Shown in pieces: positions 11,561 through 63,789 of a DNA stretch of 64,000 bases (within the stretch, counting starts at the first letter, position 1; each line of letters begins with the position of its first letter). A model generated the notes under the pieces. The model made no database searches. It worked only from the letters and a program-made list of their open reading frames with translations, and was not told the DNA's origin. Origin of the DNA: Beroe forskalii (Eukaryota; Ctenophora; Nuda; Beroida; Beroidae); the NCBI GenBank assembly GCA_011033025.1, contig WFMF01000365.1, positions 115,515 through 179,514 of the forward strand, given 5' to 3'. Position numbers and translations under genes: made by a program.

Positions 11561-12351
11561 CGATTGGGCTTTAGGTCAGGATATTGTAACGGAAGTGTTT
11601 CATATTTTGTTTACTTTGTGGATACAAACAATAAATGAATAGCTTTAGCCTAAGTGAATGAGAGTTGAGATCTCTATTTAGATGTCAAATTCATATGGGT
11701 AACAAGATCGTTTTTTAATCATTTTCACGCTAAGTTAAAGTAGCCATTCTCAATAAGCATTCCAGAGGTGTCGCCACGGTGTCTGAAATTTCCACAAACT
11801 GCCATTTGTACGTGCGTGATACTGATTTAAAAGTATATTCATGTACTTATACTTATAGTCGATGGCGCCGCTCGATCGTAAATTTCATTTTCAGAATGGT
11901 TCTCATTTTGTCGAAGTTGCGACACTTCTGTTGTTTTTCATTTTTAGACCAATTGAATTGTGAATTTATTGACATCAGACAAACATCACTAGACTGCTTT
12001 TCGTCCTGATTGCTTATCCTCATTCACATTGAGAAAGTGCAGTGGCTGGGTACTATAGTGATTCAACAGCGATTCTCGACCGTTGACTATCAGTTATAGG
12101 TTTGAATTCGCCGAATCTGTGAACTGTGCTTATATTTTTCGTCTGATTTCATTTCTACCTTTTTTTCTAGATTTTATTGTTGAGTATTCATAATCATATT
12201 GATAATTGTTTATGTTCTGATCACTTATATTTTTGTTTTAATTTTAACAACTTACATCATTGATTTTCTGCGTTGATTATGATCGTTCGCGTTTTCAATG
12301 TGGACTGTGGAATTCTGATTCATGGTTGTGAATATCACTATCAGCGCAGCT

Positions 12352-12860
12352 GCAGCGTGGTTTACACTTTACCGTTGCTAAGCGGCAAGCGCGCGTAGGT
12401 GTGAGTACGCGTTTCCCTTACGGGACACCGTGTTGGAGAAGTGCGCCGCGCGCGAGCCTCGACGGACGTTGCCCCGTCTATTTCTTCTGACTGGATGGGC
12501 GAGGTTGCAAAGTGACGTCCAAATGTGGAACGTTGCGCCGCGCGCGAGGGTAGGGTAACATCCTACGAGCGCGAGCCACACAGGGATATACGTCTTTTGT
12601 AACGTCTTTTTTGGATATACGTCTTTTTTAACCTTTACCTTGCTAAACACGTATATCCCTGTCTGTCTGCGTTTTGCTAAACACGTATATCCCTGTGTGG
12701 CTCGCGCGGCGCGTAAACACACCTATGCGGGCTTAAGAAACCTTTGCCAGACGTTGCCCCGACTCTGCGAGTCGGGGCGCGCGCGCGAGGGGGCCAGGCA
12801 ACGCCTGGCAAGGAAACCTTTGCCACGCACTTCTCCTTGCTAAACACGTATACCCTTGTT
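12352..12860. repeat. CpG-rich module cluster, left arm
   Basis: An island of CGCGCG runs in AT-rich DNA, made of shuffled short modules. ACACGTATATCCCTGT occurs twice directly and again in reverse form (ACAGGGATATACGT). A longer module with GCGCGCGAGGGTAGGGTAAC and CAAATGTGGAACGTTGCGC (about 12500-12570) recurs twice in the right arm at 61945-62200 in the opposite sense. No open frame has codon bias. It is probably non-autonomous transposon debris; the family is unknown. Confidence 0.6.
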
Positions 12861-14212
12861 AGAAATCACAAGAAGTGGAAGATATAAAGAAGGATAAAAT
12901 TGAACATTGAAAGCTTGTTTTGGTTTCAAATTTTGGTTTTAAATATTAGTTTCAAATTGTGAAAACTTGTTCTACAACTTGTTATACAACTTGTTATATC
13001 ATTGTTGCAGTGAAACACAATTCTCAAAAATGATTTCATACCCGCACACTATGTATACCACTAATCAACTGATAGTTTCGAAATTAAATATTTTTTCTTC
13101 AGGATCTCCACATAGTGTAACACAACATTCTCAGTTAGTTAATTTAATATGTGTTGTGTTGTATACAAGTATCTTTATTATAAAACCCCATTCTCGGTTA
13201 GTTTTTTGTACATCATAATGTCTTTTCTTTTTGTCACACATTTAATAAAACAATAGAATGTTGTTAATAAAACAATAGAATGTTATATTTTACACCATTT
13301 CAACCAAACATCATCAATGAAAATTAGGTAACATATTATGAATGTGATGAATTATAAAAAGGTTAGTACCTAACTAGGTATAAAAATAAGAACCATATAT
13401 ACAACATAAAAGCAAATATACATATATTATATCATTATAATATTAATAAGGTAACATGACGTAATAATTTAAGTAACCTAATAGAAATAAATTTTAGGTT
13501 TTAGGTAGTTATACGAACTTAATATCAATTGCTTTGCGTTGCTGGTGAGGGAAATATCTGTCTAATAACTTGAATATCACCTTTGGTACAACTTCAACAA
13601 GGTTGATTAAATTAGATTTAATTGAAATCAAATAGCACTTCGAAATAAAGTAGCTGCCAAATATCCATAGCATTACGAAATAATTTAATTAAAATTAATT
13701 AAAATTTAGGGTGTAGTTGTGCATGTAGATGGATTGCAAATGCACAGTTATTATTTTTTATTTAGATGGTTTAACTGCTATTCCAACAGCTGTAACAGCC
13801 AATGACAGGAATCGAAGGATTCAAGTGTAATCAAGCCAGTGACTGTTAAGGAAGTGTAATCCATACTTTCTTTGCCTGAGACTTTGCTGCAATGGGCAGC
13901 TCCTCATTTAACCCTCCCGTATAGTTTCCTGTATGCTCAGCCGAGTGAACCATGTGGCTGCTTAGGTGAGAGTTCTCACCCTTAGCACGATAGGCATGGC
14001 TGGGAATTGAACCACCAACCTCTCGATTGGAAGCACAACGCCCTAAACCACTGGCGCTACCTGGCGACATTGCTCCATTGTTGAACAGATTGGAATTTTT
14101 TGATGTGGTAAAAAGTATAAAGTTGATTTGAATTGTAGTCATTAAAATTTGCAAACAAGGTGTTGTGTTGGGTCTGTGGACAAAACAACACCTGGACAAA
14201 ACACCACCTTAA
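12861..14212. other. Left-arm AT-rich segment, mostly absent from the right arm
   Basis: From 12861 to about 14102 there is no counterpart in the right arm, which jumps from the module cluster (about 61795) to the sequence matching 14103. It is very AT-rich with no coding signal, and carries a tRNA-derived SINE near its end. The stretch 14103-14212 is shared again (match at 61685-61795) and has the repeated phrase GGACAAAACACCACC. Confidence 0.6.
13880..14075 (-). mobile_element. tRNA-derived SINE head
   Basis: On the minus strand, box A TAGCGCCAGTGG (14048-14059) is followed by box B GGTTCAATTCC (14003-14013) at normal tRNA spacing. The anticodon stem does not pair and no acceptor stem closes, so it is not a working tRNA gene. 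It lies in sequence private to the left arm. Pol III boxes with a degenerate cloverleaf are typical of SINE heads; the 3' limit is not clear. Confidence 0.6.
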
Positions 14213-17200
14213 TTAATTAATAGATCTAATATGCTCCTATTAATCCACCCGATTTTTGCAATGACCTGGAAATTTTTTATAACAATTCATAAACCATCTC
14301 AGGGGCTAGAACTGGGTCTCAGGAGCCCAGAAAAAAAAGTTTACCAACCTACCCCATGGGGGCGGTGGTTTTTTGGGCCACGCCCTTTTTTATATTTATA
14401 CGCTATGTCATTTTTTCATAACTCGGCTTAGGAAAGTCGTAGAGACTTCATTTTGGGCTCAAACGAATCGCAATAAACGTGTTTTTATACAATTGTTGAC
14501 ACCAATATGCCGTAGAACCCTCAGGGAAGAAGTTATGGGCCAAAAACCATTTTCGGAGTAGTCCGCGGAACATTATTTGGGCTATATTGGTATCTTGGCT
14601 CAGGAAGGTCGTAGAGACTTCATTTTGGGCTCAAACGAATCGCAACAGCCATGTTTTCATACAATTGTTGACACCAATATGCCGTAGAACCCTCAGGGAA
14701 GAAGTTATGCATCTGTGTTAAGAAAAAACTTCTGTAAACAAGTTGAACATATTTGTGGGACCAGCTCCTTTTCCGATCAGCTCCTTGGGTAATTTACAAC
14801 ATAATCCGGAATCCCAACACATATTATCATATCTGAATTTTGGACTGATGTGTTTTGTTGAATGATAGCTGTGTTATGTATCTTTTTGAGTATTTTAAGT
14901 AATGCCTTTTCACAAATGAAACTTAAAACTGGGCTATAATTTTTAAGAATGTTTTCTTAAATAACATTTTCATTTTAGCCTACAAATAGAGGCAGGTGCC
15001 ATAGGTTTTTAGGTATTTATTTAGACTGGTATATATTTTGAACTGTGTCTTAAGTATAGGTATTTAGTGTATGGCACACTTTATCTTGAGAAATAATTAA
15101 TTAATTAATTATGGGCCAAAAACCATTTTCAGAGTAGTCCGCGAACCATTATTTGGGCTATATTGGTATCGTGGCCCAGAAAGGTTGTAGAGGCTTTATC
15201 TTGGGCGCAAAAGAATCGCAACAGCCGTGTTTTTATACAATTGTTGACTCCAATATGCCGTAGAACTCTCAGGGAAGAAGTTATGGGTCAAAAACCATTT
15301 TCGGAGTAGTCCGCGAACCATTATTTGGGCTATATTGGTATCTTGGCTCAGGAAGGTCGTAGAGGCTTTATCTTGGGCGCAAACGAATCGCAATGACCAC
15401 GTTTTTATTCAATTGTCGCCACAAATATACTCGAAAACTCTCAGGGACGAAGTTATGGGCCAAAAATCATTTTTCAGAGTACTTGCAACCCATTCTTTGG
15501 GTTATAGTGGTATCTTTGCTGGGGAAGCTCGTGGAAGATTCATCTTAAAATGAAATTGGTCGCAAATTTGGCAATGTTTTTATTTGACTGCTGCCACAAA
15601 TTTGCTTTAAAACCCTCAGGAAAGAAGGTATGGATCAAAACCATGTTTTTGGCTACCCATAACCCATTGCTCAGATTTTAAATTGGTATTTCGACTCATG
15701 AACTCAGGCGGGCTCAGGCAAAAAACGCGATTTTATTTCATAGCGGCCACAAACCATTTTTCAGGGTACCCGCAACCCATTCTTGATGTGAAGTATTCAT
15801 ATATTTTGTTGATGCTTATTTGCCTAGTGCTGCTAGGCCTGCTGACTCCAGCTGTGAAGCAGCTGGTGTCGGCAGCTGGATGAACAAGACGTGTCAGCTT
15901 GTCAGTGACAGGCAAGTGCATCTATTTTCTTTCATAGAGACACCAAATGTCTTGATTATAAGGTGACTACAAATTTCAACCATTTAAGCTCCAAAGCTTA
16001 AAGTAATGAATCGTTCCCTATTGTTAAAGCTAAAGCTGTAGGATAATGTCCTAGACCTAAAGCTGTAGGACAGTGAGTGAATACCTACTAACCTACATAC
16101 AAAACTACAAAAGCTCCATGAAATCATGGGTTTTGGGTCTCTAGGAACTACCTGAGCCCACCTGAGGTCATGAGTCGAAATACCAATATATCCCGAGCAA
16201 TGGGTCATGGGTAGCTAGAAACATGGTTTTGATCCATAACTTGATTCCTGAGGGTTTTCAAGCATATTTGTGGCAACAATCAAATAAAAACATTGCCATT
16301 GTGATTCGCTTCAGTTAAAAATGAAGCTTCTTGAGTTCTATGAGCTTCCTCCGCCAAGATTCCACTATAGCCCAAATAATGGGATGCAAGTACCCTGAAA
16401 AGTGGTTTTTGGCCCATAACTTCTCTTCTGAAAGTTTTCGACTTTATATATTTGTGACGACAATCGAATAAAACATGGTCCCTTCGATTCATTTGCGCCA
16501 AAGATAAAGCCTCTACGACCTTCCTGAGCCAAGATACCAATATAGCCCAAATAATGGTTCGCAGACTACTCGGAAGATGGTTTTTGGCCCATAACTTCTT
16601 CCCTGAGGGTTCTACGGCATATTGGTGTCAACAATTGTATAAAAATATGGCTGTTGCGATTCGTTTGCGCCCAAAATGAAGTCTCTACGACCTTCCTGAG
16701 CCAAGATACCAATATAGCCCAAATAATGGTTCGCGGACTACTCCGAAGATAATTTTTGGCCCATAACTTCTTCCCTGAGGGTTCTACGGCATATTGGTGT
16801 CAACAGTTGTATAAAAACATGTTTGTTGCGATTCGTTTGAGCCCAAAATGAAGTCTCTACGACTTTCCTGAGCCAAGATACCAATATAGCCCAAATAATG
16901 TTCCGCGGACTACTCCGAAAATGGTTTTTGGCCCATAACTTCTTCCCTGAGGGTTCTACGGCATATTGGTGTCAACAGTTGTATAAAAACATGTTTGTTG
17001 CGATTCGTTTGAGCCCAAAATGAAGTCTCTACAACTTTCCTAAGCCGAGTTATGAAAAAACGACATAGCGTATAAATATAAAAAGGCGTGGCCCAAAAAC
17101 CACCGCCCCCATGGGGTGGGTTGGTAAACTTTTTTTTCTGGGCTCCTGAGACCCAGTACTAGCCCCTGAAATAGTTAATGAATTGTTATAAAAAATTTCC

Positions 17201-17256
17201 AGGTAAGCTGGAATTTTTGCAAAAATTGGGTGGATTATATATGTGAGCCCAATGTA
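14213..17256. mobile_element. Foldback-type element with long, internally repeated arms
   Basis: A 3.04-kb insertion private to the left arm. It is flanked by CACCTTAA at 14205-14212 and 17257-17264; the empty site survives once in the right arm (CACCTTAAATGCTTG, reverse strand near 61690). Two arms of about 1.3 kb are inverted copies: TAATCCACCC near 14241 pairs with GGGTGGATTA ending 17237. Each arm is built from tandem units of roughly 160-200 bases, recognisable by GGCCCATAACTTCTTCCCTG and its reverse complement. The centre (about 15650-16200) is unique and has no transposase frame. Long inverted arms made of direct subrepeats define foldback elements. The 8-base duplication fits a hAT or P-like enzyme supplied elsewhere, which is inference. 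Confidence 0.75.
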
Positions 17257-17450: not shown

Positions 17451-18613
17451 TATATTATATTTCAATTATATTTGCAGAATGATGTCTTGAAGAAAGTTTT
17501 CTTTACAATTTGAGTAATTCATTATATTTTGTTTGTATCCCAAAGATAAATATTTTGTTTTCATTATGTATTTTTATAGATATCATAATATGAGTGAAGC
17601 TGAAAAAGACCATGATACTGAAGAATCAGACTTTGATGCTGATTTCAAGTTGGAACCCCTTCCACGTGCTGCTGATATCATAGCTGAACTTCCAGATTAT
17701 CCAGACTCTGAAGAAGAAGAGGAGGTCAGAAGTATCATGCAAATGATCAATGTCAGCAACTGTGATAAAAATGATGATAATAAAGATGACCATAAGGTTA
17801 TTGAGAATTCTGAATGTGACATGATCAAAGATGAGACAAAATCATCTGAAGATGTTCCTATGACTGGTATTAATGAATCAGTGAATGATGGTCAAGTAGT
17901 AGATGAGGCAAATGACAAGTTAAATAATGATAACAGTTGCAATGAGAATGAACTTTTGGATATGGGCTTAGAGAAGGGTTTACAAGATATTGAAGGTATT
18001 GGCATGGAGGAAAATTCTTTCATTGATGCTGATGAAGAATTTAAGCATTGACAGAAGCAATTAGAAAGTTCCTTGATAGTTAATGGTACTGTAATTGTGC
18101 TGTAAAATTATCTTTAAATCCAAATTCATAACTCTGAATTTGATTCACCTTATAGTCACCTTGCATCATATTTCTTTTTTGATTTTTAACAGAAAACTTA
18201 ACTGCCCAATGGATCATTTGGTATTACTAGGTAGTTGTACTTGTGTATTTTTAATTCCTTACTGATAACAGGAATCAAGGACAAGCCTTCCATTTGAAAC
18301 TGCAATTGGTGAAGAGAGAGAACCAAAAAAGAGATCCATTGCTAGTCCTGATTCAGGGAAAAATGTTATAGAGTATCCTTCAATTAAGAGTCCTGTTTCT
18401 AATTTGGTTAGACAATCCAAAAGGCAGCGTATTGAAGCCCCAAAAACCTCTAAGTCAAAGTTGGACAAGAAAGTCTATCTCAACAAAGCTGGTAGGTATA
18501 TGCTATACAGTTATATCAAAATTCATTGACCATACTATAGTGTATTTAATCTAAGTCTTAGCTTCCATTTTTAATGTTGTAATAAGTATGTTAGAAATAT
18601 GTGAATATATGTA

Positions 18614-21600
18614 TCTTTAATATAAAATGAATTCACACGTGAATAATGTTTGTGCCGCCGTATACAATTAAATTTGAGCTTGCCAAGAGAAAGGAAGGCG
18701 AAAGGGAGGAAAGAGGTGCCGTTAAGGAAACCAATTTTGCACGCAGATTATAATCAGTTCTATATGGTGCTTTCTATTATGCTACTACTTGTTAAATGCT
18801 GGCTGTAGTTTTTTGAAAATTTGACATTTCTTTTACTTCAAATTCAAGATCTCAAGTTGACATAACTCGAATAAAGGAGGAGAATCCAGATAGATCGTTT
18901 AAAAAAAATAACTCATAGAGGTCGGTCGATAATCAATGCCTCAGTTGGTGTAAATGTAATCGTCAGAAAGATCAATTCAAGGTTTACACTCTAACCGAGT
19001 GTGAACAATTTTAACCGAGTCGGATATAGTGTGTACCTGATAACGAAGACCAGTCCTGGCCTGGATCGATGTCAAAATGTCCAAGCTCACATTTGCCCTT
19101 CCCATGCCCGATTTGTTCTTCCAAGCCAAGGTACGGGTACAATCATACAGTTCAGGCCACAGACACTGATGCATGACAATTTGGCAACAAGATTGAAATC
19201 TCTCGAGATCGAATTGAAAAGAACGATGATATATTGATTTTTAAATATTGACCAAAGTTCAAACAATGAAATTGAAAATGGATGATTTGATTGTGAAAAA
19301 TCCTAATGCAACACAGCGCAAGTAAAAGCGAAACGCTACCAACAACTAAATAAAACAAAATGGCTCCATAGAATGCGCGCGTGAATTTAAGGTCACGTGA
19401 CTTTGGATGCAGAGTCCTACATCTCAGCTGGGCACGTATGCGCCAAGTGGGCGCCGCAGAACTCGCGGAAACACCATTCGACCTTTTATTTTATTTCGTT
19501 GCGCCACAGTTTGCTCTCTCTGTTTCTCTTGCCTCTGTACGTAGAAGTTTTCCATCAATGGCGTAGTGAAGGAAGAAAGGGAAGGGGAGAGAAGGGAAGC
19601 GAGGAAGGGAATGGATGGGAGGAAGGGAGGGGAAGGGAAGGGAGGGAGGGAATGGATGGGAGGAAGGGAAGGGAAGGGAAGATAAAGGAATGGATGGGAG
19701 GAAGGCCAGGAAGGGAAGGGAGGAAGGGAAGGGAAGGGAAGGGAGGAAGGGAAGGGACGGGAGGATCGGAAGGGAGGGGAAGGGAAGGGAGAAAGTGAAG
19801 GGACGGGAGGAAGGGAAGGGACGGGAATGGAAGGGAATGGAAGGGAAGGGAGGAAGGGAAGGGAAGGGAAGGGAAGGGAGGAAGGAAGGAGGAAGGGGAG
19901 GAAGGAAGGAGGAAGGAAGGAAGGAGGAAGGGAAAGAAGGGATGGGAAGGAAAGAGAGGAGGAAGGGGGGAAGGAAGGACGAAGGAAGGAAAGGGAGGGG
20001 AAGGGAGGAAGAGAAGGGAAGGGAAGGGAAGGGAGGGGAAGGGAAGGGAGGGGAAGGGAAGCGAAAGGAAGGGAAGGGAAGAGAAGAGAAGAGAAGAGAA
20101 GAGAAGAGAAGAGAAGGGAAGGGAGGAAGGGAAGGGAGGAAGGGAAGGGAGGAAGGAAGGAGGAAGGAAGGAGGAAGGAAGGAGGAAGGGAAGGGAGGAA
20201 GGGAAGGGAGGAAGGGAAGGGAAGGGAATGGAATGGAATGGAAGGGAAGGGAGGAAGGGAAGGGAAGGGAGGAAGGGAAGGGAAAGGAGGAAGGGAAGGG
20301 AAGGGATGGGAAGGGAAAGAGAGGGAGGGAAGGGAAGGGAAGGGAAGGGACGGAAGGGAAGGAGAAGGAAGGGAAGGGAGGGGAAGGGAAGGGAAGGGAA
20401 GCGAAAGGAAGGGAAGCGAGGAAGGGAAGGGAGGAAAGGGAGGGAGGGAAGGGAATGGATGGGAGGAAGGGAAGGGAAGGGAGGAAGGGAAGGGAAGGGA
20501 AGGGAAGGGATGAAGGGAAGGGAAGGGACGGGAGGAAGGGAAGGGAGGGGAAGCGAAAGGAAGGGAAGGGAGGGAAGGGACGAAGGGAAGGGAAGGGAGG
20601 AAAGGGAGGGAAGGGAAAGGGAGGGAGGGAAGGGAAGAGAAGAGAAGAGAAGAGAAGAGAAGAGAAGGGAAGGGAAGGGAGGAAGGGAAGGGAGGAAGGG
20701 AAGGGAATGGAATGGAATGGAAGGGAATGGATGGGAGGAAGGGAAGGGACGAAGGGAAGGGAAGGGAAGAGAAGAGAAGAGAAGAGAAGAGAAGGGAAGG
20801 GAAGGAGGAAGGGAAGGGAGAAGGGAAGGGAGGAAGGAAGGGAGAAGGAAGGGAGGAAGGAAGGGAGGAAGGAAGGAGGAAGGGAATGGATGGGAGGAAG
20901 GGAATGGATGGGAGGAAGGGAAGGGAATGGAATGGAATGGAAGGGAGGGAAGGGAATGGATGGGAGGAAGGAAGGACGAAGGAAGGAAGGGAGGAAGGAA
21001 GGGAATGGAAGGGAGGAATGGAAGGGAGGGACGGGAGGAAGGGAAGGAGGGGAAGGGAAGGGAGGAAGGTGAGAAGGAAGGAGAAGGGACGGAGGAAGGA
21101 AGGAAGGGAAGGGGAGGAAGGAGGGAGGAAGGGAGGAGTGGAAGGGAAGGGAGGAAGGAAGGAACGGAGGAAGGGAAGAAGGAAGGAGGAAGGAAGGAAG
21201 GGAGGAAGGGAAGGGACGAAGGGAAGGGAAGGGAATGGAAGGGAGGAATGGAAGGGAGGGGACGGGAGGAAGGGAAGGAATGGGAAGGGAAGGGAGGAAG
21301 GGTAGGGAAGCGAGGAAGGGACGGGAGGAAGGGAAGGGAAGGGAAGGGAGAGGAAGGGAGGGAGGGGAAGGGAGGGAGTGGAAGGGAAGGGAAGGAACGG
21401 GAGGAAGGGAAGAGAAGGGAAGGGAGGAAGGGAAGTGAAGGGAGGAAGGGAAGGGAAGGGAGGAAGGGAAGAGAGGAAGGGAACGGAGGAAGGGAACGGA
21501 GGAAGGGGACGGAGGAAGGGAACGGAGGAAGGGAACGGAGGAAGGGAAGGGGGAAAGGAAGGGAAGGGAGGATGGGAAGGGAATGGAAGGGAGGAAGGGA

Positions 21601-22377
21601 AAGGAGGAAGGGAAAGGAGGAAGGGAAAGGAGGAAGGGAAGGGAGGAAGGAAAGGGAAGGGAAGGAAAGGGAGGAAGGGAATGGAGGAAGAGAGGAAGGA
21701 AATAGGAAAAAAGAGGGTTCTTTCTAGACGTAGATAATGCTTCAAAACTCATCAGAAAAGTACCAAAACGTGACGATTCACACTTTTAATTTGTTTTCAT
21801 AAATTTTTATCATTTGAGATAAATCATATTTTTGTCGTGGATTTTTCCCAATTCATTTGTTCGAATTTTGATAGATTGTACCGCGAAGTTTTGGCGCAGC
21901 GATGCGCAGTTACGGTCTCTTGCGATGTGGTTATCGCAATTGCGCTTAGCTACCGCTAGTTGGCGCCAGCTACGATCGTTTCTAGCTATTGACTCTCCTG
22001 CGCCAGTTATCGTAGCAAAGCGCTGGCTTTCCGCCTGCGTGCGCTAGTTCCCGATAGTCTCGCTAGTCACCCGCTATTCCCGAAAGGCCCCCTGGATTTG
22101 GAAGAACTAAAATCTGCAAAATGGGCCAAATGCGGAACCGTGGTCAGTAAGTCAGTATGAGAATCAGTTGTCAGAATTAACATCATCTTTCAATCAACAG
22201 GGAACAAAACGCACATGGTTTAGCACGACTTAGATTAACCGAACTACTTTTCACTCTGCTCCTTCATAAAATTGAATATTTCGTTTTAGTCAATAATTGG
22301 ATTGCTACCTATAGTTTAATCCGTACCTTTTTCAAAATTTGCGAACGAGGTCGCGCGAAGCCCAACGGGCCTTCTAG
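18614..22377 (+). mobile_element. Non-autonomous Helitron in NCBP3 intron 2
   Basis: A 3764-base insertion private to the left arm. The 5' end reads A|TCTTTAATA and the 3' end is the hairpin GAAGCCCAACGGGCCTTC followed by CTAG|T. The right arm holds the empty site, GTATTTTAAAC (reverse strand near 59670), giving an exact A|T insertion without target duplication. These are all the Helitron hallmarks: 5' TC, 3' hairpin plus CTAG, and A|T target. No Rep/helicase frame is present. Its cargo is the purine-only array at 19567-21713. Confidence 0.8.
19567..21713 (+). repeat. 2.1-kb purine-only (GGGAA/GGAA)n array
   Basis: The plus strand is almost entirely G and A, in variants of GGGAAGGGAGGAA, with rare isolated C and T. 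Higher-order blocks recur: GAATGGATGGGAGGAA, runs of AAGAG at about 20080-20110, 20640-20665 and 20765-20792, and GGAATGGAATGG. The long open frames on both strands (Arg/Glu/Gly/Lys or Pro/Ser/Phe only) come from the repeat and are not genes. It lies inside the Helitron and is sense-strand purine in the NCBP3 transcript. Confidence 0.95.
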
Positions 22378-23996
22378 TTTTAAACTAAAATATAAGCTTA
22401 CAGATGTCGGTCAGATTTCTGAAATCTTCCAGCAGATGGTTGTCAAGTAGGTTTAAAGAATGTAATTGAAAATATTTCTTAGTTTTCCATTGTAATGATG
22501 ATGGTATAATACTTTTAGGAGAGTTCTTCACTGGTTTTGACCCTGCATCAGCTGAGGCTAAATATCGTCGACAGATGAGAATGCAACGATTTGGAAAGTA
22601 TGAAAAGATTGAAAAAAGTTCCTTTGATGATTCAAAATTAGATATCAGTGACTGTCACAGGTAAATTCAATTTGATTATACATATTATGGTTCATAAGTG
22701 CATGAACCTGGTCAATTTGTTGTTATGGTATTTTTTGTGTACTTTTAAACCTTTTGTTCCTTCCCCATTTCCCCACATATTGCCTGCTTAAGGAATATTT
22801 TGTTTTAAAAATTATGCCAGATTATTCTTCCTTCAGTGATGAAAACTCTGGACAGATGTTTGAAAAGAGACCTGAAGCAATTCATTTATTTGGCACTGAT
22901 GACCTGAGTACAGATGACATCCTTGAATACTTCTCTGAGTTTTCTCCCCATCACATAGAGTGGGTTGATGACTCTCACTGTGAGTTTTCATTTCGGGGGG
23001 GGACACAAGAGCAGGATGGATGGATTTAAGACTTAGTTGCCCTTTTCTGCCAGATCACGTCATAATTTTGGGGTGGGTCCCTACAAAAAATGACAAATTT
23101 CAGTTGGTATTTATACATGGGACAATCTACAGTGTTTTATGATCATTTTGGTTTGGTCCCTTCAAATAGTGACAAATATAAGCTAGTAAATTGGACAATC
23201 TGCAGCTTGGATAAGTTTGCATGCAAATTTTGGGGTGGGTCTTTTCAGATGATGTCAAATATAATTTAGTACATGGGCCCTACATGGGACTATCTGCAGG
23301 GGTGGTGCAATGGTGGGTGGTATTTCAAATTTGGGCAAATAATCACGTATTGAAGTCACCCTCTTGTCTTGCTCTTAGTCCATGATCCTCCCTAATTCAT
23401 TTAAGTTATTTCTTGCAAACCTTTTACATTTAAAATTCTCCTTAGTTCTGCTAATAATCACAAAGCTATGTGAGTGTTGACAAGCAATTTACAGCTCTTA
23501 TTATATTAATTCCACTGTAGAGAAGATCTGTTGATATTATCCAACTCATATTCACAAGGCATTACTGCTTGATCAGGTAACGTTGTATGGTCAGATGAAA
23601 ACAGTGTGAAACGTGCCCTTGTGAAACTCAGTAAAAAGTATACAGAAGAAGAGCTGGAGGAGAAGAAGCGAGAGCTTCGGAGGAGGGAAAAAGATGGTTT
23701 GTTTTCTAAGTTTATCTCTACGAGACGAAAGTCAACAGTCACTCTGATGCAGATTTATGAATCATGGCATGTGATCTAGATAGATAGATAGATGATATGT
23801 GATCTATTGATAACTTAGCATTTCCCATGTCAGAGGAAAATTTCTACCTGGTGCCTGGTTCATTGGACAGACCTGGCAATGACGAGTACAAAGGAATGTG
23901 GAGACTTGCCATTAAAGATAATGAAAAGGCTCACTTGATGTTCATGAGGATTGCACACACGGGTAAGTTAATTTCTTGATATAAATATTGAAAGAA

Positions 23997-47734: not shown

Positions 47735-47765
<31 letters not shown>

Positions 47766-51060: not shown

Positions 51061-53089
51061 TTAAACGAGTGAGATGTCAAGAACTACGACTTATCTTGAG
51101 ATGAGACCAGCCAAAGTATGTTGTGCTAAGACGGAATTGTGGCTTAGGCTATATTGGAAGTTGGTTTGAGCCTATTTGGGTGCTGTGATGACGTCATCAA
51201 AATCACGTAAAACCACTAAAGTAACGCATTTTGTGGTAGAACACTATTTTGCGCTACTTTGAACATCTCTAACTCAAAGAGTTTTTATCGGATTATGTTT
51301 TACTTCAATATGCTGCTTTAAGACCTTGAGATTTAGCTATAAAACCAATTTCAGGGCGATCGGTCGAAGATTGTCATCGTGGGAGACTTCTAAAAATTAA
51401 ACTGCAAATTGATTGAAATTATGTTTATGACAAAAATTGGTACTGTAGTCCTATTCTGTGATACGAAGGTGAACTTATAATGGTTTCTCCATGTCTCGCA
51501 GTGAATAGGGATGGGAAATATATGATGGACTAGTAAAGCACGTGAGTTCACGCGGACGTTTTGTAGAAATTAGGGGATTTGAAGAAATTGATATTTACAC
51601 GGGATTTTCGCCTTGGTTACGTTGAAATGAGTTCAAATACGACTAATGCACGTGAAATTAGATCTGGTTGCTATATTTCAGCACGTTAGTTCACGTGGAC
51701 GATTTGTAGAAATTAAGAAATATATCAATTCTAGTAATTCCAAGTTAGAATAACGTAGTTTTGGACTTCGTCAAAGTGAGTTATGTGGGTTAGACTTGCG
51801 AGTGGGCTAGTAACGTGGGTTCGGACTACGTGAGGGCAAGTTACGTGGGTCCAAACTGCCTTTGGGCAAGTAACATGGGTTCAAACAACATGCATCTGTC
51901 AAGATATCACCACCAAAACCGTTGGACGGTTGGTCAAGTAACCCCCCGCGGGTTTTGGATGTGACAACGGAACCTGAAAAGAGACAAAATGGGCTGATCA
52001 CATCCAAACCAGCGGGGGTTGCCAGACAACCCGTCCTTTATTTTGTGGTAACTAATATGATTATGACTTCTACAGAATAAAGATATAATGATTCTGCAGT
52101 ACATTGTATAGCCATAAAATTTTACATAAGCTGCAAGACACACAATTTCAACATAAGGCGTACATGATTCATGCCATTACATACAGGCTACAACCCATAT
52201 ACAGTTACATCTATCGATTATGATGATTTTAAATCTGACTCACTGGTCTGGGTATCGAAGGTGGGATCAGGCACGGGATCCTGTAACTCGGTTTGTTCCA
52301 GCGACAGATCCCGGAGACTGTGCAGGGTGCGGTATTTGCAGGGATCATCCCGGACTTGGTAGCTGATAACCTTCACGGACTCGAGGAAGGGGGAATACAT
52401 CGGGATGTAGTTCTCAACCCCGTAACCTAGAGTGTTGAGAGATGGGAATTGGAAGGAGTGTTTTTATTGATATGCAATAATTTAAGCCAAATATCAGGCT
52501 TCATTACAGAATTGAGGCGTAAAATTGAGACATAGCCCTCAGGCCACAATTCCACCAAATCTCAGAATATAAACCATTCATTGACTACGCTAGATGCTGA
52601 CCGTAGCTGGGAACATGTTTTCTGATGATGAAGAAGGCGTTGAGGTCTTTATGACTCTTCTCGATGACCACACCCCCGTATGTCAGGGGTCGGGTAAGAT
52701 CCCACTTAGATCGGAGTGTAACTTCCACGTAACTACCCACGTTTACAAAGGGAACGTCCATTGTCTGAGGAAGAACAAGAATTGCGCCTGCACCGACACA
52801 ATTATTGTTGTTCCCGTGGACCGTATGCAGGCGCTTAATTTCCCTCCCCCGCGATGCTTGATGTCTTGTAACTCAACATTTTGGAAATTCTAGTCTTAAC
52901 GACCTGGGCAACATGCTTATTTGAGTATCGTGCCATCGTGTATTTCGAAATCTAATTGCTGAATTAAACTTTACTGAAAATTTTCTGTGACCTGATTTAA
53001 AACCTTTCTGATGAACTGATTGGGCTGTACAGGATCAGAAAACTGAAGATAAGCTAAGAAAATAAAAATTTGAAATTTGACTATAGTGG

Positions 53090-53167
53090 GGCTTGAACCC
53101 GTGACCTCTAGCGTGCCAGCACTACAAAGTCTGACGCGCTAACCGATTACGCTACGAAGTCATGAAA
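53090..53167 (-). mobile_element. tRNA-derived SINE head in right-arm MRPL19 intron 4
   Basis: The minus strand reads TAGCGTAATCGGTTAGCGCG (box A) and later GGGTTCAAGCCCC (box B), with GACT/AGTC at the two ends forming a partial acceptor stem. The anticodon stem is poor, so a working tRNA is unlikely. It lies in about 1 kb of sequence (52785-53870) not found in the left arm, which also has a GGACGGAGGGACGGAC simple repeat at about 53519-53560 and a spaced inverted repeat GCGCCTGCA/TGCAGGCGC at about 52786-52837. Confidence 0.6.
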
Positions 53168-54899
53168 TGACACGTTAATTATGTGTAACAATACGTGTAA
53201 AATTTCAGTTTTTTATTGTGATATTGATTCAATTTTCCACATCATTACTCAAAAGCTCAAAGAATAGTCAAATTTGGCAAGCCTTCTTCACATTTACTCA
53301 GTCAATATCTTTTTTGGCGAAAAAAAATCGTGTTTTTGTGTTTGAAATAGTTCGAAATGAAAATCAATTTCAGGACATTAGATTTGGTCGATATGAAAAC
53401 TTTAGTGGCTGGGAATTTTAAGTACGGATGGGCCTGATCAACGTATGAGATTAAAATTTTTGACAACCGAAAGCTTCATGAATTAGGAAATTCGTGATTT
53501 TGAAGATTTGTATGAAAAGGGGACGGAGGGACGGACGGACGGAGGGACGGAGGGACATTTTCGCGACTGATATTATAAAGGAGCAATCCGGGCACTTTCC
53601 AGAAATTACAGTAGTTGTATTGCAAACCTGGACCTGATATACACATATCCTATTTCTCACCTTCCCAAACCACGATCTCTGCCAACCCTCTCATTTGCCT
53701 TTTTGTATACACAAAAATGCCAATGGGGAGGGAAAAAATTAATGAGAAATTTAAATTGTCATGGCATCAGCAACTTTACTGTTTACCTCATTTTCTGATA
53801 TTCTTTAACAGCATTCCGCACCAAATTAATCAAGTCATTATTTCATTAAAGCAAGGAAGCTATTCCTCTACCGACCTGTCGCCGTTTCCACATTTCCACC
53901 AGATCGTGATACAGCACGTGATCCGTAGGTTTCTGTGCCTCTATCTTCAGGATCTCATCCGGGACTTCGAAATCCCGACTAAATCCCAGGGACTCCATAT
54001 CGTGATCCCGAGGATCCTGAGCAAACATCGCTTTCTCACACTCCCGCTCAAACATGACCTGAGAGAGAATTACTGTTGCGGACTCAAAATTTTTATGAGT
54101 GCATGAATGTCATTAAATCTCTCATCATTATGTCATCGATTGTTCATATTTTAGTCCCTTTTCTAGCAAATCACGTAGATAATGTACAAACATAAAATGA
54201 AGGTACCTGTCGCTGCCACTTGTTGACTGGGAGGTGGGGGTGGAAGTGGGCAGACCATCCCGGGTACAGCCCCTTCATGTACGCAGCGATGTTACCCACA
54301 TTCTCCCCAGGGTACTCGAACACAAACCTCCTGCTCTTACTCCGCACCCCCTCACTGAAAGGAGAAAGGGGTAAAATGGAGAGGTAGAGAGGGGTATAAG
54401 CATAGCACATCCTCGTTGGAAGAAGGGGTAAAATAGAGGTGGTATTATAGAATCCTACTCCATCAGTTGATATTGATTTCCATTTTGATGAGTCGAATAC
54501 GAAATTTCTTTGGATATGATCACTATGCTATAGCTATAAAACAATGAACACAGATCATGCGATAACCCCGGCATATAATTGGTGAAATACACGAATATGC
54601 GCTTATCTGATGGCCCAGGTTTGCCGCATAAAATTACCTGAAAGGAGAGTCATATTCTCTGTTAAGCTCTGCAGCACTTTGTGTAGATTTAGCTCGTGTA
54701 GATTCACTGTTACTACGTTCTGTTGTACTTCTTGTAGATTTAGCCCGTGTGCAAGGCAGGATACCTGTTAAATATTCTCGTTTGCAACATTTTGTTGGAC
54801 AATGAAAGGATATTTCTAATGAATCGGTTATTGAGAAAAACAAAAGATTATGAGCTGAAAACGAAACTAACTTGATAATCTCCGGCAACAGACTTTCAT

Positions 54900-56302
54900 G
54901 GCAGCTCCTCGTTTTCTACCCTCATGATATCATTGCCATCTTCCTCAAATTTAAGGAGGATTTAGTTAATCAGACAAGTGTTTCATAAAGGTGCTAATTC
55001 TGAGAAATGGTTGAAGAATTCAATCTTCATCAAGTAAAACAAGTGAGCGTTGAGAGATAAACACTAAACAGTGATGTCACAGTGAACTGGTGTCACAGTT
55101 AATTGTTGTCGATGTAAAATGGTGTCAGAGTGAGGTCCATGTGACCATGTAATGTGGGTCGATACCGAATACCGATCGTCAAAAACCACAATAAATAATT
55201 ATTCCAGAGAAATCAACGCCAGAAGGAATAATATGGAGCCTTAAAAAGATTCATTTACGTTCATAAACTAGAGAGAGCGTTACGATCGTGAAACGTCGCT
55301 AAGACAGACATTCGATCAAAAGACAAAATATACGAATGGACGCTTTAATGATCAATACTAATTTGAAGGTTCTATGAAATAAAGGAATGAGTATCTTCAA
55401 TTTTGGAGATGAAGAGATGATTGCTGATTAACAACGCTAAACTAATCAGAAAAAATCATAATATAAATTACCAGTTCCAGCAATCACAAAATATAGACTA
55501 CGAATTTCAGAGCTAATGATAGTGTATATCAAAGACTGTTCCCATAATGATATAAAATAATATATATGTAACTAATAATTAGAGTAAATATATCTTTAAC
55601 TTTATAACACATTAAAAATAAGATTTATACGACCATACTATAAAATGCTGAATAAATATTTTCTTTTTCAAATTACTGTAACATGTGAATATTTCAAATC
55701 AAAACCAAAGACCGCTACATTTCATCATAATCATGTAATTGATACTTTTAAAGTAACGAAAAGGAGTTTTTGATCATCCAAATTATCTCAAATTAAGCGA
55801 AAATTACAAGGAGTACAGAACATGATGGCAAGGAGACTGGAAATTGAAAGAAAAGCTAATTTGAAAACTGTTACAGCCGGAATAATTATCAGCTTCCTAC
55901 ATCACAATTTGGAAAAAAGGAAATAACATTGCTCACTGAGTAGTGAGTAGTGCCAATAAAATCATTCAAGCTTCAATTCTTGATTAGTTTATGGTTAATC
56001 CACAGACGCGGAGTGACTTGAATACAGTCAAAGTACATCAAAAAGATCTTTATTTGGCATTTTGTGACGTTTATCTAATTTTTAAAAGCATCACAATAAA
56101 ATGAAGGATAAAGTCGGATAAATGCTGTGTCCAATTCTTCATTAAAAAGCAACTGCAATAGCTAAATAAGAGTCAAATTAAATCTATCAACGTCTAAACT
56201 ACAACACTGTTCAATTCTCAAGACCTCGCAGAACCATTAGATAATGATCGTAATTCTTAGAACAAGTCAGATGCATCCTTTTCAGGTGGTTCCCTCTCTT
56301 CA
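54900..56302. other. Right-arm MRPL19-NCBP3 intergenic region
   Basis: Reverse match of 30291-31488, with extra sequence near 55060-55280 that the left arm lacks. No gene recognised. Confidence 0.5.
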
Positions 56303-59300
56303 CTATCTAGAACGACTAGCTATTTTAGCTCTGAGATCTAGGGTGGGTTGTACTACTCTTGACCTCTTGCTGTTGGGTGAGATGGGGGTCCGCCCCCTTC
56401 TCTTCTTCCGGTACACCCCCTCCACCCCTTCCCTGATCACTGCAACGTTGTTAATCACGGGTTTGATCTGACTGCTCAGCTTCCGGACAGCTGGTCGTTC
56501 TGAAGACTTGACGGAAGGTCTGATCACAGCCACGGACTTTGTACTCGAGTGGGGTCGTCGGGGCGGAACTGATATAACTGATTTGCTGATGAACTTCTTT
56601 GGTGATCTGCCGGTGGTTCTGTCGGACTCAATGGTTCGTTTCTTGCTAGGCGGCTTCAGTTTTGGAGGTGGTATTTCCTTCTTGGACACTTTCTTAGACT
56701 TCTTCTTCTTCTTGGTGGCTTCAGGCGGTGTACTGGAATCTGAAATGAGAGTTGATATTAAATGCTACTGCATAAATATTAAATCTGCTAACTGTAACGG
56801 AATGATATAAAATAAATCAGAAATCCATCTACAAACTTATTCTTCTAGAGGATCGATTTGGTCATCTCATAAAAGAAAAGCTTTCTGAATTATGTCTTAA
56901 AGCTTATCTGGCACCAAAGAACTCCTATAATAACCTGAAGAAGAAGAATCAGAAGACTCTGAGTCACTGCTGTCCGAGCTACTGGAGCTAGAACTGCTGC
57001 TACTCTCCGAATCACTGCCTGAACTGCTGTCTGAGGAGGAGGAACTGTGTATGATGACTGCTGCCGGACTCTTCTTCTTCTGCCTCACATCCCCTCTTCC
57101 CCTCCTGTTAACCGCAGCCTGCCTCTTCTCAACCGTTCTGGTGTCAGACCCTTCGCTTTCACTGAGTTGACCCGGTTCAGAGCCACTGTCAGAGTTGTCT
57201 TTTCGGACCTGCAATGAAAAGCTTGTGTTAGTGAACTTACAATTGATTGCAGCTTCGATTCCTATTTACAGCTATGCACGTTTCAGATATCGGCTGAAAT
57301 AAACCTGGATTCTGGAATCAACCCACAGAAGAGTACAATACACAAACCTCCACATCAGTGACAGTCTCGCTCCGGTCCACCTCAATAGTGAGCGTCTCAA
57401 TGAGCGGCTTCCCCACCTTATACTCCTCCTTTATCTGCTCCACGTCAATGCTTCCTTTCTTCAGGTACCTCCGGAGATCAGGGGGCTTGGTTGTAGTCAT
57501 TGCCTTCATTTCCATGTTCGTTTTCTGCTTTTCCAGCTGCCGCTTGCTCTGGTTTTGCTTTAACTTTGTGTAGTCACTGGCAGGACAGGGCAGTAGAGTT
57601 AGGAATATCAAATCGACAGCACAGAAATGATTACCAGGGTTGAATTTTGGAAGTTAAAATGGTAATTGAGATTTTTAACTAATTAGGTAAAGTGGTTTCA
57701 TTTATTGAAACGGCAATTATTTGATGAGAAATATGCGGGATCGATTTACCAGCGGAAACGGCTGAATTGTAGCACATACTCTATAGCACTATAGACCGTT
57801 ATATACAGTATACAGTGTTACCGAAGCAATGCATGCAATTACACTAACTTGTTCTGAAGATAGGGTGCATTGGGGTTCCCATACAAGCTGTAGTAACGGC
57901 TGTTCTTGTAGGCACCGCGCACCTTGATGTCACCTGATGTATGATTAAATAGTGAAAAAAGAAATTTCATCCTTAATAATTTGGTAGGTAAAGAAATGAT
58001 ATCCTTAATACATTTTCAGCAATAAGTACATAATTATTATGAATACCCATCTTGAAGCTTAATCAAAAAATTAACTTACCCGTGTGCGCAATCCTCATGA
58101 ACATCAAGTGAGCCTTTTCATTATCTTTAATGGCAAGTCTCCACATTCCTTTGTACTCGTCATTGCCAGGTCTGTCCAGAGAACCAGGTACCAGGTAGAA
58201 GTTTTCCTCTGAAATGGGAAATGTCAAGTTATTAATAGATCACATACTTAGTATTTTGAAACCTATTATGGATTATTCCAGATCATTTTTGACAAGATTT
58301 TCTCATTTCATGATTCATAAATCTGAGTCAGAGTGACTGTTGACTGAAGTCTTCATGAGGAAATAAACATGGAAAACAAACCATCTTTTTCCCTCCTCCG
58401 AAGCTCTCGCTTCTTCTCCTCCAGCTCTTCTTCTGTATACTTCTTACTGAGTTTCACAAGGGCACGTTTCACACTGTTTTCATCTGACCATACAACGTTA
58501 CCTGATTAAGCAGTAATGCCTTGTGAATATGAGTTGGATAATATCAACAGATCTTCTCTACAGTGGAATTTATATAATAAAAGCTGTAAAATTGCTTGTC
58601 AACACTCACATTGCTTCGTGATTATTAGGAGAACTAAGATTTGTAAGAAAAACTTAAATGAATGGGGGAGGATCATGGACTAAGAGCAAGACACAAGGGT
58701 GACATCAGTACGTGATTATTCCCCCAATTTTGAAATACCACCCACCATTGCACCACCCCTGCAGATAGTCCCATGTACTAAATGATATTTGACATCATTT
58801 GAAAAGACCCACCTCAAAATTCGCATACAAACTTATCCAAGCTGCAGAATGTCCCATTTACTAGCTTATATTTGTCACTATTTGAAGAGACCAAACCAAA
58901 ATTATCATAAAACACTGTAGATTGTCCCATGTATAAGTACTAACTGAAATTTGTCATGTTTTGTAGGAACCCACCCCAAAATTATGACGTGATCTGGCAG
59001 AAAAGGGCAACTAAGTCTTAACTCCATCCATCCCGCTCTTGTGCCCCCCAGGAATGAAAACTCACAGTGAGAGTCATCAACCCACTCTATGTGATGGGGA
59101 GAAAACTCAGAGAAGTATTCAAGGATGTCATCTGTACTCAGGTCATCAGTGCCAAATAAATGAATTGCTTCAGGTCTCTTTTCAAACATCTGTCCAGAGT
59201 TTTCATCACTGAAGGAAGAATAATCTGGCATAATTTTTAAAACAAAAAATTCCTTAAGCAGGGGATGTGGGGTAGGAACAAAAGGTTTAAAAGTACACAA

Positions 59301-60703
59301 AAAATACCATAACAACAAATTGACCAGGTTCATGCTCTTATGAACCATAATATGTATAATCAAAGTGAATTTACCTGTGACAGTCACTGATATCTAATTT
59401 TGAATCATCAAAGGAACTTTTTTCAATCTTTTCATACTTTCCAAATCGTTGCATTCTCATCTGTCGACGATATTTAGCCTCAGCTGATGCAGGGTCAAAA
59501 CCAGTGAAGAACTCTCCTGAAAGTATTATACCATCATCATTACAATGGAAAACTAAGAAATATTTTCAATTACATTCTTTAAACCTACTTGACAACCATC
59601 TGCTGGATGATTTCAGAAATCTGACAGACATCTGTAAGCTTATATTTTACATTAGCTTTAGTTTAAAATACATATATTCACATATTTCTAACATACTTAT
59701 TACTTAAACATTGAAAATGGAAGCTAAGACTCAGGTTAAATACACTATAGTATGGTCAATGAATTTTGATATAACTGTATAGCATTTACCTACCAGCTTT
59801 GTTGAGATATACTTTCTTGTCCAACTTTGACTTAGAGGTTTTTGGGGCTTCAATACGCTGCCTTTTGGATTGTCTAACCAAATTAGAAACAGGGCTCTTA
59901 ATTGAAGGATACTCTATAACATTTTTCCCTGAATCAGGACTAGCAATGGATCTCTTTTTTGGTTCTCTCTCTTCACCAATTGCAGTTTCAAATGGAGGGC
60001 TTGCCCTTGATTCCTGTTATCAGTAAGGAATTAAAAATACACAAGTACAACTACCCAGTAATACCAAATGATCCATTGGGCTGTTAAGTTTTCTGTTAAA
60101 AATCAAAAAAGAAATATGATGCAAGGTGACTATAAGGTGAATCAGAATTCAGAGTTATGAATTTGAATTTAAAAATAATTTTTACAGCACAATTACAGTA
60201 CTTACATTAACTATCAAGGAACTTTCTAATTGGCTTCTGTCAATGCTTAAATTCACTTCATCAGCATCAATGAAAGAATTTTCCTCCATGCCAATACCTT
60301 CAATATCTTGTAAACCCTTCTCTAAGCCCATATCCAAAAGTTCATTTTCATTGCAACTGTTATCATTATTTAACTTATCATTCGCCTCATCTACTACTTG
60401 ACCATCATTCACTGATTCATTGATATCAGTCATAGGAACATCTTCAGATGATTTTGTCTCATCTTTGATCATGTCACATTCAGAATTCTCAATGACCTTA
60501 TGGTCATCTTTATTATCATCATTTTTATCACAGTTGCTGACATTGATCATTTGCATGATACTTCTGACCTCCTCTTCTTCTTCAGAGTCTGGATAATCTG
60601 GAAGTTCAGCAATGATATCAGCAGCACGTGGAAGGGGTTCCAACTTGAAATCAGCATCAAAGTCTGATTCTTCAGTATCATGGTCTTTTTCAGCTTCACT
60701 CAT
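56303..60703 (-). CDS. NCBP3: Nuclear cap-binding protein subunit 3
   Basis: Ten exons on the minus strand: 60206-60703, 59794-60013, 59375-59516, 59066-59208, 58382-58501, 58080-58208, 57849-57933, 57348-57576, 56935-57208, 56303-56739; all GT-AG, phases agree, 758 residues. After an acidic N-terminus, an RRM-like domain at about 298-350 reads RPEAIHLFGTDDLSTDDILE, then HIEWVDDSHCNVVW. WVDD (329-332) corresponds to the WLDD cap-binding motif of human NCBP3. Later RGAYKNSRYYSLYGNPN matches the conserved block RGAAKRSKYYMKYGNPN. The C-terminus is a poly-Ser/Asp stretch and a basic Lys/Arg-rich tail. NCBP3 pairs with NCBP1 in an alternative cap-binding complex for mRNA export. The start is the only in-frame Met before the acidic region, with stops upstream. 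This is the intact copy in the window. Confidence 0.9.
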
Positions 60704-61429
60704 ATTATGATATCTATAAAATTACATAATGAAAACGCAATATGTATCTTTGGGATACAAACAAAATATAATGAATTACTTTCATTATTATTTTCATTTA
60801 AGTCTCTAGTTAAAATTTACTTTATCTACCTTATCCAACACCTCAAAACTGTCTATCCTAGTGAATCTTACACAGTAGCCACTTAGAATCAACTCCTCAC
60901 CTTGCTTAACATATAACTATTGGCTTGACTTAGTCTTACATTCTCTGTTTCGGTTCACACAATAGCCCCAGCAAGTGTGATTCCTATGCCCCAGACTTTG
61001 TAATAATTGGCTACATGTAAGATTACACTATGGGATAATTGTTGACCATTATACATAATAGTCTATAAACCTTGCCCAGAAAAACCATATTAACCACCTT
61101 AAGGCAACAATTAATTAATTATTCCATCCCATATTTGCTCTGATATTGAATTATTCAATGTTTTTGTTAAATGGCATGAAATTTCAATTTTTGTTTTATT
61201 CAAAAAATTTTTGTTTTTATTCATACTCAAATTGTAAAGAAAACTTTCTTCAAGACATCATTCTGCAAATATAATTAAAATATAATATAGTAGCAGGCCC
61301 ATTGGGCCTGCAAATACACAGCTACACAGGACAAAACACCACCAAGACATAACACCACCTTAGAGCAGAAATTGTGCAATGAAGTTGCTTGAGGGGACCA
61401 TATGTCCTAACCCTAACCAGGAAATTGTG
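60704..61429. other. NCBP3 upstream region, right arm
   Basis: AT-rich 5' flank. Up to about 61400 it partly matches 17250-17589 of the left arm, including the Helitron-like hairpin (61294-61312) and a TAACCCTAACC pair near 61411. Confidence 0.5.
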
Positions 61430-61650
61430 TGGTGCGCGGACAAAACACCACCCGGACAAAACCCCACCCAGACATAACCCCACCTTAGAGCACAAATTGC
61501 ACGAAAGGGACGCTCGTGCGTAATCCTGTGACGCAATGTTACGGTTAGGGTTAGGACGTATGGTTCGCACGAACGTTTCCATCACCCAATTTGTGCTCTA
61601 AGGTGGGGTTATGTCCGGGTGGGGTTTTGTCCGGGTGGGGTTTTGTCCTA
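61430..61650. mobile_element. Imperfect hairpin element built on GGACAAAACCCCACC
   Basis: The left side (GGACAAAACCCCACC, CCACCTTAGAGCACAAATTG) is mirrored by the right (CAATTTGTGCTCTAAGGTGG, GGTGGGGTTTTGTCC), giving arms of about 75 bases around a loop with GGTTAGGGTTAGG. The left arm has only a simplified version here, so it is MITE-like or a local inverted duplication. Confidence 0.55.
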
Positions 61651-61794
61651 CCATCAATTGTGTCACAGATTTACGCACAAGCATTTAAGGTGGTGTTTTG
61701 TCCAGGTGTTGTTTGGTCCACAGACCCAACACAATGCCTTGTTTGCAAATTTTAATCACCACAATTCAAATCAACTTTATCCTTTTTACCACAT

Positions 61795-62545
61795 CGTGCG
61801 CGAAACCAAAGCGCTGGTTAGGGCAACACTTTTCAGTCGTCGCCGACTCGCGGGTAGCGCGCCACGCAACACGAACAGGGATATACTTGTTAAACGTTGT
61901 CTGACCACTTCACCGGGCGCGCACGTCCGCCGAAGTTCCTTCGTAGGATGTTACCCTACCCTCGCGCGCGCGGCGCAACGTTCCACATTTGGACGTCACT
62001 TAGCTTTGCGCCTTGTCCAACAACAAGTCAGAAGAAAGGGACGGACATCGTCCGTCGAAAGTTCTTAAGCCCGCAATCCGCATAGGTGTGTGTACGCGCG
62101 CCGCGCAACTAGAACTGGCAACGCAGACAGGGATATACGTCGTAGGATGTTACCCTACCCTCGCGCGCGGCGCAACGTTCCACATTTGGACGTCACTTTG
62201 CAACCTCGCCATCCAGTCAGAAGAAATAGACGGGGCAACGTCCGTCGAGGATATACGTGTTTAGCAACCGCCGAAGGCCAAACAACGTCTGACAAGGGTA
62301 TACGTGTTTAGTAAGGAGAAGTGCGCGGTAAAGGTTGCAAAACACGTATATGTCGTATATCCCTGTGTGGCTCGCGCGCGGCGCACTTATCCACCACAGT
62401 GTTTACCGTAGCGTGGTTTACACTTTAGCCGCAGCGTGGCTACACTTTACCGTTGCTAAGCGCGCGTAAGTGTGTGTACGCGCTTCCCTACGCGTAGGGA
62501 AGCGCGTACACATACTTACGCGCGCAACGGTAAAGCGTAATCCAC
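61795..62545. repeat. CpG-rich module cluster, right arm
   Basis: Counterpart of 12352-12860 but longer and reshuffled. The module with GCGCGGCGCAACGTTCCACA occurs at about 61969 and 62164. ACAGGGATATAC occurs at about 61876 and 62128. A palindrome, CGCGCTTCCCTACGCGTAGGGAAGCGCG, spans about 62478-62505. No coding signal. Confidence 0.6.
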
Positions 62546-63013
62546 GCTGCAGCTGCGCTGATAGTGATATTCACAACCATGAATCAGAATTCCAAAGTCC
62601 ACATTGAAAATGAAAACGATCATAATCAACGCAGAAAATCAATGATGTAAGTTGTTAAAATTAAAACAAAAATATAAGTGATCAGAACATAAAGTTAAAC
62701 AATTATCAATATGATTATGAATACTCAACAATATAATCTAGAAGTAGAAAAAAAGGTAGAAATGAAATCAGGCGAAAAATATAAGCACAGTTCACAGATT
62801 CGGCGAATTCAAACCTATAACTGATAGTCAACGGTCGAGAATCGCTAGTACCCACTTTCTCAATGAGGATAAGCAATCAGGACGAAAAGCATTCTAGTGA
62901 TGTTTGTCTGATGCCAATAAATTCACAATTCAATTGGTCTAAAAATGAAAAACAACAGAAGTGTCGCAACTTTGACTTCGAGAAAATGAGAACCATTCTG
63001 GAAATGAAATTTA

Positions 63014-63252
63014 GGCGGCCGTAATGTTCGTCGGTCGATCGAATGGAATTGGTCGATCGATCAACTCCATTTGATTTTGAACGAATGATGTGTTTTACTG
63101 GTCCCTAATGACTTGAATTGTGTTTAAATGAGCAATATTTAGCTGCTTCCCTACTAGCTCTAAGATTTTATATTTAAAACACATCAGTCGTTCAAATGAA
63201 GTTGATCGATCGACCAATTTCATTCGATCGACCGTTGTTCTATGCATGGGCC
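63014..63252. mobile_element. Harbinger-like MITE A
   Basis: 239 bases with TTA on both sides (63011-63013, 63253-63255). Ends are GGCGGCCGTAATGTTCG and, in reverse, GGCCCATGCATAGAACAAC, leading into inner inverted repeats CGGTCGATCGAATGG. The left arm keeps the empty site TCGTAAATTTC near 11879. TWA duplication and GG-starting ends fit PIF/Harbinger. Confidence 0.75.
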
Positions 63253-63289
63253 TTACGATCGAGCGGCGCCATCGACTATATAACTATAA

Positions 63290-63529
63290 GGCGCATGTAT
63301 AGAACATTGCTCGATCGAATGGAATTGGTCGATCGATAAACTTCATTTGATCAACTGGGGTGTTTTACACAGAAAATTTTTGAGCTAGTAGGGGAACAAC
63401 TATGATATTGCTTATTCGACCATAATTCCAGTCATTTGGGACCAGTAAAACACATCAGTCGGTCAAATGGAGCTGATCGATCGACCAATTCCATTCGATC
63501 GACCGATGCAGTTGTACTATACATGCCCC
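63290..63529. mobile_element. Harbinger-like MITE B
   Basis: 240 bases with TAA on both sides (63287-63289, 63530-63532), the same family as MITE A. Ends are GGCGCATGTATAGAAC and, in reverse, GGGGCATGTATAGTAC. The left arm has the empty site near 11853. Confidence 0.75.
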
Positions 63530-63789
63530 TAAGTAAAAGTACATGAATATACTTTTAAATCAGTATAACGCACGCACAAATGGCAGTTTGTGGAAATTTC
63601 AGACACCGTGGCGACACCTCTGGCTACTTTAACTTAGCGTGAAAATGATTAAAAACGATCTTGTTACCCACATGAATTTGACATCTGAATAGAGATCTCA
63701 ACTCTCATTCACTTAGCTATTCGTTTATCGTCTGTAATCACAAAACAAACAAATATGAAACACTTCCATTACAATATCCTGACCTTAAA

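Follow-up and report, generated by a model that had tools for sequence, protein, structure and literature searches.

Assemblies of highly polymorphic animals are known to retain both alleles of a locus as apparent duplicates. In three earlier vertebrate assemblies, false duplications are put at 4-16% of the assembly, arising mostly from divergent haplotypes, and 7-24% of these false duplications are on the same scaffold (PMC9516828). In the polymorphic assembly of Ciona savignyi, tandem misassembly of alleles is called a common error (PMC1868934). Artificial palindromes can result from scaffolding errors, as a survey of genomes of parthenogenetic species cautions (PMC7953838). In Botryllus schlosseri, at 3.63% heterozygosity, palindromes were checked by depth and errors, and the authors take them as real (PMC12448946). 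Here we describe a palindromic locus in a 64,000-nucleotide stretch of the ctenophore Beroe forskalii (the window; bases 115515-179514 of contig WFMF01000365.1), which we compared with the whole assembly of 216 Mb in 1134 contigs. We propose, with a probability of about 70%, that its two arms are alternative haplotypes of a single locus, which the assembly of a highly heterozygous diploid has fused at the end of a contig.

The mirror structure itself is present in the sequence. An inverted self-match (minus-strand comparison) resolves into 18 blastn blocks that form a single colinear chain from 11569/63790 to 35730/45204, with single blocks reaching 2294 bits, and this chain, far above what chance would give, bears out the imperfect palindrome with a 9.5-kb spacer proposed in the initial annotation. 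Arm A spans 24.2 kb on the plus strand (11569-35730), arm B is its reverse complement and spans 18.6 kb on the minus strand (45204-63790), and a spacer of 9.5 kb lies between them on the plus strand (35731-45203). To the left of arm A is a flank (1-11568) that includes an open frame at 8981-9991 that resembles an exon of a SIX-type homeobox protein. The window contains no N's. The arm-versus-arm alignment comprises 10,412 columns with 525 mismatches (5.0%), and covers 43% of arm A and 56% of arm B. Private insertions make up a large part of the unaligned remainder, which amounts to about half of each arm, the largest unaligned gaps being 3.0, 3.8 and 4.6 kb in arm A and 4.5 kb in arm B.

These comparisons already bear on two trivial explanations. 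Mobile elements are found in both arms, which would favour similarity between members of a repeat family, but the coding exons match in order and orientation and the inner arm piece is found in this contig alone; the self-comparison chain rejects chance, and we regard similarity by chance or through a repeat family as negligible. A single-molecule fold-back, such as a hairpin read or an amplification chimera, would derive both arms from one haplotype, and artefacts of this kind commonly take the form of inverted chimeras with a spacer. Two copies of one molecule should be identical apart from read error, however, whereas here 5.0% of aligned columns are mismatched and each arm has private insertions, many in all. 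This divergence leads us to reject the fold-back, which we consider scarcely credible.

Several of the insertions have an empty site as their counterpart in the opposite arm, with short repeats resembling target sites at the junctions, in keeping with the arm-specific insertions and empty partner sites described earlier. The private insertions of arm A include a 3.0-kb segment (14213-17256) with inverted ends of about 446 bp and CACCTTAA flanking both sides, a segment that holds a purine-rich array of about 2 kb (18621-22385), and a LINE-like retroelement on the minus strand with a reverse transcriptase match (23985-28578). The arm comparison also places a private insertion of 4.5 kb in arm B (47553-52052). 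The purine array (19707-21720) is itself about 2 kb of near-pure G/A on the plus strand and produces spurious open frames of great length on either strand. We further note that a 476-base stretch of arm B (63031-63506) forms an imperfect inverted repeat of its own, at 81%.

The sharp endpoints claimed in the initial annotation hold for the inner edges. The inner edge of arm A (35730) falls inside a coding exon of PSMB5 (proteasome beta-5), whose exons run on the plus strand from arm A into the spacer (35702-38283), with matches at 35702-35815, 36020-36208 and 37284-37442, followed by a weak final match at about 38170-38283. For the first exon, the solved relatives are proteasome beta subunits, chiefly beta-5. 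Because PSMB5 crosses 35730 unbroken, the junction between arm A and the spacer is native. Beyond it, the plus-strand spacer sequence up to 44572 (from 35731) carries the rest of PSMB5, two kappa-class glutathione transferase frames and one sugar transporter gene. The two glutathione transferase frames are adjacent and each consists of a single exon (38932-40454), and a protein search with the second finds 18 relatives in public contigs at 53-84% identity.

The opposite junction, between the spacer and arm B, is derived. Here the first 630 bases or so of a repeat element on the plus strand (44573-45203), which begins CACTAAGGCC and carries 22-base tandem units, are truncated at 45203, and at 45203/45204 the interior of the element abuts the PSMB5 exon of arm B midway along that exon. 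Elements of this type, which begin with CACTA, contain arrays of the 22-base unit in both orientations. All 11 fetched copies (L012-L022) have 17-31 forward units each versus 4 in the window, and the units continue past the break point in all seven copies aligned there; the 11 are the best-scoring of 40 scored among 574 candidates and so a non-random set, and shortened copies may exist elsewhere. On these counts we reject 45204 as the end of the mobile element. The remainder of the arm B PSMB5 exon, sought beyond the far side of the element, does not follow there. As judged by eye, the sequence shared across 45203/45204 amounts to about one base, with no evident overlap beyond it. A plain overlap misjoin therefore fails to explain this junction, which calls for a chimeric molecule or a real rearrangement and in this respect weighs against the haplotype reading.

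Such a rearrangement could be a real inverted segmental duplication, in which at least 18-24 kb was copied up to the middle of the PSMB5 exon and inserted in inverted orientation into the CACTA-beginning element 9.5 kb downstream. The duplication would be old, the NCBP3 and L19 copies would have stayed functional, and gene conversion would have made the near-identical patches. This explanation is favoured by the observation that both inner breaks are sharp and lack evident shared homology, as in end joining. We nevertheless consider it unlikely, though a serious competitor, for reasons that lie in the outer edge and in the genes.

The outer edge of arm B is of a different nature from the inner ones, and here the endpoint given in the initial annotation did not stand. 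A TTAA-flanked, high-copy element of about 538 bp starts on the plus strand at 63785 and runs past the end of the contig, so that 63789 is rejected as a demonstrated end of a duplication. Indeed, the contig is 179,514 bases long, which makes the right edge of the window coincide with the contig end; the contig stops about 210 bases into the element, and the last 216 bases of the window (63785-64000) are the start of it. With 40 of 441 candidates scored, the element is listed in at least 39 further places, at 93-100% identity, and the fetched copies, compared with one another, have about 538 bases in common that start at or adjacent to TTAA. Homology between the arms may thus extend past the contig end. 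Defined ends on both sides within continuous sequence, as a duplication might present, are not what we observe, since the outer end lies within a mobile element that the contig end cuts off; this reflects missing data rather than disproof. The part of the left flank tested for copy number (10300-11568, 1.3 kb) is single in the assembly, with just two matches beyond itself, of 77 and 44 bases, and no second copy of this piece was found elsewhere. It follows that a real duplication must either stop inside the outer element, so that its end happens to fall in the mobile element where the contig also ends, or have lost its continuation. In favour of a duplication, duplicated sequences often break contigs.

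The copy number of the locus within the assembly points to retained alleles. A search of the assembly with the inner arm piece (34000-35700) returns this piece and three pieces of arm B, and nothing else. The spacer piece 38900-42200 is single-copy, and no second copy of it was found on another contig; the rest of the spacer was covered by one search, in which repeat matches took up the 40 of 574 candidates scored. As a control, we searched for the proteasome family and obtained 25 exon matches, distributed over 13 places. From all 13 we fetched 18 pieces in total, of which 15 have a readable frame and cover 12 places; named by eye, these read as 12 different subunits, and the thirteenth place is PSMB5 itself. 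At this sensitivity each of the 13 places is unique, and no two of them are more alike in DNA than 51 bases at 80%, in a control that is a small sample and misses small fragments, as the short PSMB5 piece of arm B itself escaped listing. A fourteenth proteasome subunit would be expected, and none was seen in this search. No N's occur among 70 loci, which leaves no scaffold gap to account for the join and counts against the haplotype reading. The proteasome control and the single-copy pieces suggest an assembly that looks close to haploid where tested, in which the present locus, as seen with the inner arm piece, stands in two copies.

Other candidate pairs did not provide a comparison. C227 and C241 are alike over 939 bases (95.8%), but in longer sequence the likeness stops on both sides, on one side with inverted ends, and we read the pair as a repeat. 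Two equally spaced copies of the C636 element, considered as a duplication within a contig, have nothing in common in the 3 kb to one side of each. No other retained allelic pair for calibrating heterozygosity was found, and this lack weighs against the haplotype reading.

The coding exons correspond in order and orientation through the two arms, in agreement with the earlier claim that the arms carry the same genes in mirrored arrangement. Exons of NCBP3 (nuclear cap-binding subunit 3) on the plus strand of arm A (17590-30287) have partners on the minus strand in arm B (60703-56306). The Pfam match to NCBP3 comes from the exon at about 22820-22993 only, the other exons being assigned from position and conservation, and searching structures with the NCBP3 frame yielded no match. 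A gene of the ribosomal protein L19 family on the plus strand of arm A (32789-33316), which we would guess to be mitochondrial L19, likewise has a minus-strand partner in arm B (52764-52233). Across seven hand-trimmed coding cores from NCBP3 and the L19-family gene, the arms differ at 69 of 1842 bases and 5 of 614 amino acids, a replacement rate that is biased downward because the cores were trimmed by eye, one of them with a one-codon in-frame gap. None of the seven trimmed cores contains a stop in arm B. The untrimmed open frames, which include flanking non-coding sequence with stops, give a dN/dS of 0.17. Three of eight such frames have stops in arm B: two of these fall outside the trimmed cores, and the third is the PSMB5 piece, which had been translated in an incorrect frame, with a stop in each arm, and was left out. 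The NCBP3 and L19-family copies look constrained in both arms. For an inverted duplication this would mean two genes kept under nearly full constraint in both copies, which speaks against it; NCBP3 and the L19-family gene are usually single-copy.

Silent differences between the arms are more numerous. Fourfold sites differ at 33 of 247 positions in the seven cores (13%), with 2 of 55 in the outer two cores and 31 of 192 in the inner five (16%). Divergence at this level, both overall and in the inner cores, is very high for alleles; it weighs against the haplotype reading and supports an inverted duplication.

Divergence is also uneven along the arms. Divided into 20 windows of 500 columns each, the alignment has between 1 and 48 mismatches per window (up to 9.6%), with a variance-to-mean ratio of 7.8, and in 16 windows outside the guessed coding stretches they range from 3 to 53, with a ratio of 7.9. 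We count this unevenness in favour of haplotypes, since it is expected of haplotypes that recombine. The arms also share one identical run of 502 aligned bases with no differences (34305-34806), compared with a longest run of 239 in 500 shuffles and a mean divergence of about 5% elsewhere. No recognised coding sequence or RNA family lies within 34305-34806, and an RNA family was rejected as the cause of the run, as the window gives no match at gathering scores. Set beside far higher divergence, the run would also suit a gene-conversion tract and fits an inverted duplication in this respect. The overall pattern is in line with a pair of alleles that differ in ancestry from one part of the chromosome to another, and functional duplicates with gene conversion could fit it too. 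The same applies to the differences as a whole: they are allele-like, with intact coding, silent changes and uneven divergence, and long-kept duplicates subject to gene conversion could look alike.

Fused haplotypes are favoured here because arm B lies at the contig end, the assembly is haploid-looking, the proteins are near-identical and the divergence is patchy. The initial annotation had offered an inverted duplication and a head-to-head joining of haplotypes as alternatives; the second is better supported, without the outer end as a real boundary. Direct evidence comes from the native junction of arm A with the spacer, the derived junction of the spacer with arm B, and an outer edge made up of an element start and a contig end, whereas allelism and the origin of the turn are what we infer. 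Under fused haplotypes, the assembly path would start in the left flank, follow haplotype 1 along arm A into the native spacer, and then return on haplotype 2 along arm B to the contig end. The second haplotype would have been removed or merged elsewhere, and would survive here through its fusion to the primary contig. The turn may be a chimeric read or a join in the assembly graph. Alternatively, a heterozygous inversion of the 9.5-kb spacer would yield exactly the 45203/45204 junction on haplotype 2, and would offer the assembler a path from the left arm of one haplotype through the spacer to the left arm of the other. It is possible, if doubtful, that both inner junctions are real DNA, either as a heterozygous 9.5-kb inversion that splits PSMB5 and appears as a hairpin path, or as an old inverted duplication in which gene conversion keeps two functional copies of NCBP3 and L19.

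The choice between these readings matters for gene content. If the locus is an artefact, the copy counts of NCBP3 and the L19 family are inflated in the assembly and the broken PSMB5 copy is false. The contig would then provide a signature by which fused haplotypes can be recognised from sequence alone: one native and one derived junction, a second arm that ends with the contig, single-copy pieces of flank and spacer, and allele-like differences. If it is real, the locus represents either an inverted duplication of considerable size or an inversion by which a proteasome gene is broken.

Among described systems, the heterotype false duplications reported in PMC9516828 resemble this locus in that two divergent haplotypes of one locus are kept as two copies, some of them on the same scaffold, and are commoner at high heterozygosity. 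The copies here differ in being inverted around a 9.5-kb spacer; the term 'inverted' is absent from the main text of that paper (PMC9516828). The tandem allele misassemblies of Ciona savignyi likewise set allelic copies side by side within a single assembled unit of a hyperpolymorphic animal, but those described are in tandem, with medians of 0.7-3.5 kb by class, whereas the present copies are inverted and extend over 18-24 kb (PMC1868934). The palindromes reported for Adineta vaga and Folsomia candida share with our locus the reverse-complementary gene blocks on one contig, which here comprise only a few genes (PMC7953838). As in Botryllus schlosseri, where uncollapsed haplotypes were the suspected artefact, the suspicion here falls on two retained haplotypes; the palindromes of that species are reported with depth and error checks, in contrast to the sequence comparison on which the present reading is built (PMC12448946).
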